Below are positions 28,601 to 33,740 of a stretch of DNA of 64,000 nucleotides, one piece after another (position 1 is the stretch's first letter; the number at the start of each line of letters is the position of its first letter). A program made the position numbers and the translations under genes. This stretch comes from Dysidea avara (taxonomy: Eukaryota; Porifera; Demospongiae; Dictyoceratida; Dysideidae). The notes beneath the pieces are model-generated. The model searched no databases. It saw only the letters and a list, made by a program, of their open reading frames with translations, and was not told where the DNA came from. The stretch is from the NCBI RefSeq assembly GCF_963678975.1, contig NC_089276.1:5357098-5421097 (forward strand). The letters are read 5' to 3'.

Positions 28601-31600
28601 GTTAATGGTCACATCTTGTAAGTAGCTCACTTGTTTGTGTCTTGTAATATTTGTTGCTGTGTAGCAGTAGTTTTAAATTTGTACACATAACAATTATTTT
28701 ATTAATTATAGGTGAGCCTTAAAGTACTACTACAATTACTGTGTTAGCTATGAATGAATCAGTAAACTTCTAGTACTATCATACAGTTTGGTGTGCATAA
28801 TTGTATGCATACATGTACAGTATATATAGCTTAGACACAGAGATACAAATGTTAATAAATTTACACACTGCTTGTATTATTGTCATTATGATAGATATTA
28901 TGCTGTTATTGTGGTGATTGGTGGAGATGAAACCAGCCTCGGTACTACAAATATTGAGGATATTGGTCCTTTTAATAAGGAGGAAGCTGATACAGCTAAC
29001 AGTGATGGTCAACCTTACACCTATATTACCGGCATAGTAGAGGCTAGTGATATCAGTGGCTATCCTTATCCTTACATAGTGGGGGATGAGAGTAGGTCAA
29101 GTATTGGTGGAGTAAATTATGAGAATGTACAATTACAAACTAACACAACATATGCTGTACTGATCAGAGTGTATACTTCTAATGACATGGTGAGTGTAAT
29201 GTATTTATTGAACTCAGTAAAACCAGTTGTTAGCATAGTGTTGTGATGTACTTGTGTCATTAATTTCTGCAACCAAATTTAATGTTGCTTGAACAATGAC
29301 CACAACTACATAATTGGTACTTGTGCACTGTTGTTAATGGGGAAAATGTTCTAAAGTAAAAAAAAACAAAAAAAACACTGTTACACTGTTAACAGCAGTG
29401 GTTTTAAGGTGGTTCGTACAGTTTCTATATGGCTTCACCAGGAAATTTGCAGGTCCTGAAACAAGCAAGCCATCGCCATTGTACTAGCAGAAATCAATGT
29501 AGCATTTTGTTCTCTATCCTTTACAACAAACAGACAATGTCTGAGATTTGTGTAGCATAAGGTCCAAACTTAGCGCTTCAGAGCAAACACTTCCTTTGTG
29601 CTTGGTGCAATTGCACTGGATTTGCTGTTATATACAATTTACCTGATCTACCATTGTACAGAGATACTTTTCTTATCACGTCTCTAGTTCATGTGTTAAT
29701 TGTACCCGTGTCACGGGATTTGAAAAATTGATACTACCAGGTGAAGACAAGTGTTAAAAATCGGCTTCCACACAATTGTAGCTTATAAAATGTGATGTGA
29801 AAAACCAACTGACTAGTTGATTATTGTATCAACACACTGTGATGATCTGTGCTAATGTAACATTCATTTGCAAATGACAGGAACTGGTGATCAACCGCGG
29901 TAATGAGTACAATTAAGCCTCACTACTACTGAAATTTTTGCAGTATGAAATTTTCGTGGTTGCAAACTAAAACAGGATTTTTTTTCACAGTTCCAAGGTA
30001 AAACAGAATTTTTCACAATTTTATTTTCACGGATCTACCTCAAGTTTCGCGGTTTTCATGGTTGTTCATGCTTAACTGAAGAATTGTCTTGCAGCTATTC
30101 AAGTTATTATTAACATAACGATGCACAATGACTACGCAAAATACAACTCATTACTTTAAGCAGGAGCTCATAAGTGCCGAAGGCACAAAGGAGCGTGAAA
30201 CTTCCATGAAGTTGTGTGGTAACAGTGCTGAAATTCAAAATTACCTTATGGAACACCACTAATAAGTGTTGAAACCTCACCAACCCCACAGGCCACCATA
30301 CACGCCTACTTAGTAGGCTTCTGTCATTATTACACTTATTGGACAAATTCACTAGTAGCTGTGCAGCACGAGATGAGCAGTACCAGTCGTGGATCAACAG
30401 TTTTAGCCCGTTTGCTAGGTTGGTTAGCAACACTACTCTTGTGGCTGTCTCTTACGCTATGATTCCATCGCTTTCTCCCATTGCTATAGTAGTTATTGAT
30501 ACAAGAACTGCTGCATTGCAAATGTTTGTTGCTATAACAAAACCACCAACAGGTGGCCTGTGAATTTGTGGTGTTCCAAATTAGGCAATATTTCACAATA
30601 GAAGTCCTGCATGTTTAAACACATTAGTGTCATGCTCCTTACGCCTTCAGCGCTTATAAGCTCCTGCTTTAAGCCAGCCAAGCCAAGCACTTTGCCAGCA
30701 GCATGTTGCAGTCAACGATTGATGTATTGATAGGGAGCTGAAAATAATCTCAAGTGCCACTCACAGCCAAGCGGGAAAGAAACGTGGTGAATATATGAAG
30801 CTTGATGGTGAAGAGAGAGCTACTTTTGGTGAATATGCTGCAAAACGTGGAATTGCAGCTGCCATTCGACATTTTAAAACAAATAAACTTTTCCCAAATT
30901 TGAAGGAAGCCAGCATTCATGGGTGGGAAAAGCTTATATGCATGCTGTATTAAACCAGTCAACTGACAGATAACGCCGGTGGCATACCAATGGAAGTTAC
31001 AAAGCTTCCTCTTAAAAAGCATAGAAGACCACTCTTACTAGGAGAGGAGCCGGAGGAAGAGGTCAAATTGTTCACATGGGTGCAGCTAAAGGTGTTGTAA
31101 TCAGCCATGATGCCAACTTGCTTGCTGACAATTGAGGATAGATTAATATAACCAAGGAATGGGCACAGCGATTGCTTGGGTTAGGTGAAGTGGAAAGAGA
31201 CAACAAAGTTAAGGTACTTCCATCTGATTTCTGAAACAACAGTTTTTGTCCAGCATCCGCACAATAGTTGCAATGGAAAGCATTCCAAAGGAGCTAATAA
31301 TCAACTGGGACCAAACAGGTATCAAATATGTACCAGTGTCTAATTGGACCTTTGAAGAGAAGGGGGTAAACGAGTAGAAATTGCTGGGCTGGATGGTGAA
31401 TGGCTAATCAAAGTACTATTATCATGTACTATGGATGAAAAGCTGCTGCCTACACAAGTGATGTATGCTGGCAAGACTCCTGCTTGCTTACCTAAAGTCC
31501 AGCATCCACAGAATTAGTACTTGACCTATTCTGAAAATCACTGGTTAAATGAACACACCATGATAGACTATGTACATACGTTAATACAACTTGTGCTGAT

Positions 31601-33740: not shown

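Follow-up and report, generated by a model that had tools for sequence, protein, structure and literature searches.

Organization of the locus

The DNA studied here is a stretch of 64,000 nucleotides from the sponge Dysidea avara (RefSeq assembly GCF_963678975.1, contig NC_089276.1, positions 5,357,098 to 5,421,097), hereafter called the window. It contains the remains of a transposon with two convergent genes: a pogo-like transposase on the plus strand and, on the minus strand, a protease with a HIRAN-like domain followed by an Ulp1-type (C48) catalytic domain (Table 1). An initial annotation of the sequence had recognized the transposase pieces and the Ulp1 landmarks on these strands, and both assignments hold; the N-terminal HIRAN-like domain and a nested hAT-like miniature inverted-repeat transposable element (MITE) were not part of it. 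Both genes are broken by stops and frameshifts, and the window copy is a dead, decayed member of a two-gene clade.

The initial annotation had placed the element between 29408 and 33646, with ends resembling terminal inverted repeats (TIRs) around both genes. The inverted repeats at these positions exist (39-nt arms, 82% complementary; the repeat pattern was found twice against 0.14 expected, and one of 100 shuffles gave two) and they do enclose both genes, but they are not the ends of the two-gene element. A whole-genome DNA search with 29408-33646 yielded at least 63 matches (40 of 479 candidates scored), and 17 fetched loci were aligned to this query. Loci L021 and L022 have the same outer ends with ~680 bp between them and neither gene: they align to query positions 2-384 and 435-520, then to 4181-4248 nearly adjoining. 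Because these copies hold the same ends without the genes, the outer TIRs are those of another, MITE-like element, and the two-gene element was inserted into it. This landing site of the pogo element is ~680 bp long and has TTAA (or TA) flanks and the TIR GGTGG...GTACAGTTT.

Copies of the two-gene element align to the window from ~29931 to 33598 at most and have TA-flanked ends of their own, which enclose both genes and differ from the outer ones. When the window flanks of the pogo element are joined, they reproduce the empty site found in L021 and L022. The inner ends of the sister copy L011 consist of TA plus CCGTATGTGTGGAAATTT and, on the opposite side, a near-inverse plus TA. In the window copy the outermost bases of the left TIR are gone, and its own TIR pair is weak (7/18 mismatches). 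Of the two-gene copies examined for an end pair of the 29408/33646 type, none had one when 4 or fewer substitutions were allowed. Copies with this TIR but without the protease had been named in the initial annotation as a ground for refutation, and L021 and L022 are such copies. The idea that the two-gene element ends in these repeats, which their position around both genes in the window had suggested, was ruled out by the unfilled copies and the empty-site alignment, and we attach practically no probability to it.

Table 1. Features of the window and of two unfilled copies of the outer element
Feature	Position	Strand	Remarks
Outer MITE-like element	29408..33646	.	TTAA flanks at 29404-29407 and 33647-33650; unfilled copies L021, L022
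Two-gene pogo / HIRAN-Ulp1 transposon, remains	29926..33590	.	TA at 29924-29925 and 33591-33592; limits from copy alignment, L011 TIR and L021/L022 empty site
Transposase gene (DDE_1, pogo-like), remains	30128..31980	+	Begins MTTQNTTHYFK; broken by nested MITE, several stops, frameshifts
Ulp1 (C48) catalytic domain, remains	32138..32651	-	GGDHWI and QQGGKECGLYGIA; GGKECGLYGIA; internal stops
HIRAN-like domain of the same protease gene, remains	33022..33246	-	
Nested hAT-like MITE	30162..30666	.	Inverted repeat I2; 8-bp target duplication CTTTAAGC at 30154-30161 and 30667-30674
Unfilled outer MITE-like copy	L021 2011-2693		Coordinates from locus
Unfilled outer MITE-like copy	L022 1985-2666	-	Coordinates from locus

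Association of the transposase and protease genes

The genome (550.8 Mb, 108 contigs) was searched with the Ulp1 domain and with a C-terminal piece of the transposase as protein queries; the best 150 of 985 and the best 150 of 1066 candidates, respectively, were listed. For 87 of the 150 listed Ulp1 matches there was a listed pogo-transposase match within 4 kb. The two genes of a listed pair were always on opposite strands and tail-to-tail (87/87), and 81 of the 87 pairs were spaced 267-410 bp. Six Ulp1 loci (L026-L031), which were fetched blind to the transposase search, all contained a transposase and a HIRAN-like part, the transposase of L028 being a piece.

Eight of the 63 transposase matches without a listed Ulp1 match were inspected: L034 and L035, which have long frames, the randomly chosen L049-L053, and L017, a locus of the DNA search. 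The protease is present in seven of them, the exception being L017, a truncated copy. Similarly, ten of the 63 Ulp1 matches without a listed transposase were inspected, and six have one (the window, L009, L010, L027, L028 and L056). No transposase was found in the other four, that is in L036 and, within 1.3 kb, in L054, L055 and L057. (Two random samples of nine were drawn; L049-L053 form the first five loci of one and L054-L057 the first four of the other.) Loci L037-L048 were chosen with both matches already listed, mostly with long frames, and their 12/12 is not an independent rate. Fourteen loci (L009-L020, L024, L025) were collected because their DNA resembles the window element; eight of these have both genes, and six, which are partial or decayed copies, have one gene only (protease in L016 and L018, transposase in L017, L019, L024 and L025). 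L009 and L010 count as one duplicated locus, since they are 99.8% identical over 7.8 kb with the flanks. Since seven of the eight transposases were accompanied by the protease and four of the ten unpaired Ulp1 domains had no transposase, the transposase clade keeps the protease, and related Ulp1 domains occur elsewhere too. Relatives elsewhere in this genome strongly support the two-gene pogo-group element postulated in the initial annotation.

In L036 (G000:C1:48119500-48126500) a frame of >1000 amino acids carries an Ulp1 domain, ~40% identical to the pogo-linked one, in fusion with a C-terminal PHD finger; a SAP-domain frame lies nearby. This locus possibly represents another transposon type with a shared Ulp1 module.

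The mobile unit

Intact-looking elements are ~3.0-3.6 kb long and sit at TA sites, and their TIRs mostly begin with CCGTA. Of 28 loci tested, 24 have their genes enclosed by a TA-flanked 18-bp inverted pair with at most 3 mismatches, compared with 1 of 560 shuffles. The best pair begins with CCGTA or a close variant in 21 of the 28 loci; L011 and L041 also have a CCGTA-type pair, which is not the best-scoring one there. With the same limit of 3 mismatches, no CCGTA-type pair was present in five of the 28 (L009, L028, L038, L040, L044). These counts exclude L024, for which a separate TIR search found no pair.

An end-to-end comparison of L030 and L033, two copies at different sites, showed 99.8% identity along 3,084 bp, TIRs included; the TIRs themselves are identical and both genes lie between them. 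L032 and L030 have 2,670 bp in common, reaching the same end. The near-identity of L030 and L033 at different sites indicates that the two-gene unit moved recently as one.

In L041 a second, outer inverted pair (AAAAAAGTGTGCGGCCCT, 18/18) at 6-3492 surrounds the CCGTA-ended element, perhaps another nesting event. Frames that by eye resemble retroelement genes (gag/protease-like, integrase-like, reverse-transcriptase-like) lie beside pogo elements in L030 (6190-7500), L020 (104-1723) and L033 (3737-4669, minus strand).

The transposase

Alignment of 17 transposases of ~470-520 amino acids revealed 57 invariant columns. Among these are D256, D372 and D408 (17/17), which we take, from the motifs of pogo transposases, to be the catalytic triad; the last two are separated by 35 residues (DD35D). 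Loci L012-L015 and L020, whose frames are broken, and L048 were excluded from this alignment and from that of the proteases, whereas L026 and L034, in which the protease is in two exons, were used for the transposase alignment only.

The Pfam domain DDE_1 was detected in all 17 transposases (best E 6.3e-15), and no other transposase catalytic domain was found in them by Pfam, so that an integrase-type or MULE (Mutator-like) assignment does not apply. Of the DNA-binding domains, HTH_Tnp_Tc5 was detected in 6/17, BrkDBD in 1/17 and CENP-B_N in 0/17 at E <=0.1. Comparison of the transposase profile with solved structures gave no credible match.

A motif of the form [ILMV]xx[FY][FY] occurs within the first 25 residues of 14 of the 17 transposases, where 2000 shuffles gave 0.55 with a maximum of 4. 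This N-terminal motif (MSIxxYFK) resembles, as far as the sequence tells, a PIP box without the Gln. The Drosophila pogo transposase has been described as a PCNA interactor with a PIP box, the function of which is unclear (PMC5371812).

The protease

In the 15 proteases encoded by a single frame (~340-470 amino acids), His276, Asp294, Gln329 and Cys335 are invariant (15/15). At E <=0.1 Pfam detected Peptidase_C48 in 14/15, in agreement with the initial annotation, and HIRAN in 14/15, with a best HIRAN E of 3.4e-7. When the protease profile was compared with solved structures, SENP1 was the best match (E 2.7e-4); the Ulp1-like 6dg4 matched at 0.0035 and RickCE at 0.07. The N-terminal part alone had as its best solved match the HIRAN domain of HLTF, a weak similarity (E 0.035, ~53 residues).

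NEDD8 or ubiquitin can be substrates of Ulp1-fold enzymes too, and the protease might act on one of these and not on SUMO, for example by shielding the transposase from degradation. Weak Pfam matches to RickCE_cat (1/15), ElaD/SseL-like (2/15) and YopJ-type (5/15) proteases point in this direction; these families have a common fold with the C48 proteases. The best solved relatives are SUMO proteases, with E values well below that of RickCE, and we regard a ubiquitin or NEDD8 substrate as unlikely.

The SUMO consensus psi-K-x-E is present in the linker between the two domains in 6/15 proteases compared with 1.9 after shuffling (maximum 7; p 0.004), a post hoc and modest excess, which may be a hint that the protease itself is modified. 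In the intergenic gap, polyadenylation signals were found on the transposase strand in 15/17 loci (9.7 shuffled, maximum 16) and on the other strand in 12/17 (9.6 shuffled, maximum 15). Relatives were also sought by pattern: none of the 65 matches of A1 and 33 matches of A2 in viral contigs, and none of the 44 matches of A1 in prokaryote genomes, was confirmed.

Selection and shared history

L029 and L039 are the closest family pair. The ratio of non-synonymous to synonymous substitution rates (dN/dS) between them was 0.131 in the transposase gene and 0.136 over the whole protease gene; the values are those of this single pair, and in six pairs of greater distance synonymous sites were saturated. 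Within the protease, dN/dS was 0.124 for the HIRAN part, 0.288 for the linker and 0.080 for the Ulp1 domain. These ratios indicate purifying selection on both genes. Protein distances of the two genes are correlated across 15 families (Mantel r 0.856, p 1e-4), and the FastTree trees of the two genes have 9 of 12 splits in common, compared with a mean of 0.26 and a maximum of 5 in 2000 trials with random labels. Such congruence indicates that the two genes diversified together, and the pairing looks old and maintained by selection.

As an alternative explanation, the HIRAN-Ulp1 gene might have been captured from the host, be a passenger, or form part of a second, neighbouring element. Related Ulp1 domains do occur away from pogo transposases, in three of the four random unpaired matches (within 1.3 kb) and in L036 with its PHD finger. 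This explanation is very hard to reconcile with the tail-to-tail geometry, which is fixed in 87/87 pairs, with the single TIR pair that encloses both genes, with the 99.8% identity of whole-unit copies, and with the dN/dS of about 0.08-0.14 and the congruent trees. On the strength of the geometry, the whole-unit copies, dN/dS and the tree congruence it was rejected, and we consider it highly improbable.

Possible role of the protease

The anatomy of the unit, the regular co-occurrence of its genes, their joint movement, purifying selection and codiversification are demonstrated. It is probable that the window copy represents a large and diverse clade of pogo-superfamily cut-and-paste transposons, in which two convergent genes, one for a DD35D transposase of DDE_1 type and the other for a HIRAN-Ulp1 protease, lie within TA-flanked TIRs, and that the protease is a standing accessory, which would act on SUMO or a related modifier at the element. 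Pogo and Tc1-mariner transposases cut and paste at TA, and the transposase would, like those of other such elements, excise the element and insert it at TA sites. The second protein may bind DNA through its HIRAN domain, perhaps at ends or forks; the HIRAN domain of HLTF prefers free 3' ends. The Cys protease would then act on proteins located at the element, or on those at cut and gapped DNA, and free them of SUMO or of a related ubiquitin-like modifier; transposition success would rise, either by aiding repair or replication or by undoing SUMO-dependent silencing. DeSUMOylation targeted in this way by HIRAN would make the protease a standing accessory and not a passenger.

In a more specific version the replication or repair fork would be the target of both proteins. 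The PIP-box-like motif would direct the transposase to the PCNA clamp, and its partner would use HIRAN to locate free 3' ends and DNA at forks, where it would strip SUMO, for example from PCNA or repair factors. A fork-directed deSUMOylase carried by the element would, if this were true, steer excision and re-insertion during replication. To our knowledge such a two-protein, fork-directed transposition system is known from no described DNA transposon, and we put this version forward as a speculative one with a small chance of being correct.

Silent chromatin is promoted by SUMO (PMC8131101), and the protease could instead be a counter-silencing factor, which deSUMOylates host chromatin repressors at the element and takes no direct part in the transposition reaction. 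A DNA-binding module supplied by HIRAN and the location of the protease in a separate gene, outside the transposase, are consistent with this; the present analysis yielded no link to chromatin, and the HIRAN domain of HLTF brings that protein to stalled replication forks (PMC4666394). We view a purely counter-silencing role as possible, if on balance doubtful.

Some of the results weigh against the reading of the protease as a standing accessory of a pogo clade. All the evidence is from a single genome, the copy in the window is dead, and the dN/dS values are those of one pair. Ulp1 domains without a transposase, loci with one gene only and loci without a CCGTA-type TIR pair were encountered, as described above. 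The HIRAN domain is divergent: the two scores printed (L012, L030) are under the Pfam gathering score, and the E value with HLTF is just 0.035. SUMO as the substrate is predicted from family likeness, and with the Ulp1 fold it could be NEDD8 or ubiquitin.

Comparison with known systems

The elements resemble the pogo superfamily of IS630-Tc1-mariner, as surveyed in PMC7386202, in having DDE_1 with a D-D-D triad, a TA target duplication and short TIRs; DD35D is the value that this survey gives for Passer and Fot. An HTH_Tnp_Tc5-type DNA-binding domain, detectable in some members here, may be a further likeness. They differ from known pogo elements in the second, convergent gene for the HIRAN-Ulp1 protease. 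Pogo elements are described as having one or two open reading frames encoding transposases (PMC7386202); the words "protease" and "accessory" are absent from the main text of that survey, and "protease" and "Ulp1" were not found in the consulted text of another (PMC7325037). Among the titles and opening lines of abstracts listed by full-text literature searches, in a collection that lacks most subscription journals and with Repbase outside their scope, no report of a pogo element with an Ulp1/HIRAN protease was met.

Ulp1 (C48) domains have been described in Ginger1 and in Mutator-type transposons (PMC2836005), in line with the initial annotation, which had named MULE and Ginger elements among the carriers. 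Unlike the pogo-type enzyme found here, the transposases of those elements are integrase-like or of Mutator type, and in Ginger1 the Ulp1 domain is at the C-terminus of the transposase itself (PMC2836005), whereas here it is encoded by a separate convergent gene together with a HIRAN-like domain.

With SENP1/Ulp1 SUMO proteases (C48), SENP1 being the best solved match, the protease has the His-Asp-Gln-Cys catalytic residues in common. In contrast to these enzymes, its catalytic domain is divergent and joined to HIRAN; it is predicted to be a SUMO isopeptidase. The likeness to HLTF/Rad5 is confined to the weak HIRAN match of ~53 residues: the alignment to HLTF did not extend into the C-terminal half of the domain, and no helicase or RING domain was found. 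We read the two-gene element as a variety of pogo-superfamily transposon that is, within the literature searched, previously unreported. As far as we know, the role of Ulp1-type proteases in Ginger1 and Mutator-type transposons is not settled. The pogo-group lineage offers a separate protease gene, codiversified with the transposase, under purifying selection and equipped with a likely DNA-binding domain. Near-identical recent copies with open frames in an element of ~3.1 kb make the role of a protease in transposons directly testable.

Nested insertions and flanking sequences

The hAT-like MITE was inserted into the N-terminal YFK codons of the transposase gene; its TIR arms are 31 nt long and 87% complementary, and L009 carries the uninterrupted sequence at this site. 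Because the pogo element sits inside the outer MITE and the hAT-like MITE breaks the transposase gene, the order of insertion is outer MITE, pogo element, hAT-like MITE. The hAT-like MITE has many genomic copies, at least 21 rows of the whole-genome DNA search falling inside query positions 736-1259. Elsewhere in the window, the flanking open reading frames by eye resemble FN3, EGF and Ig-type repeats.
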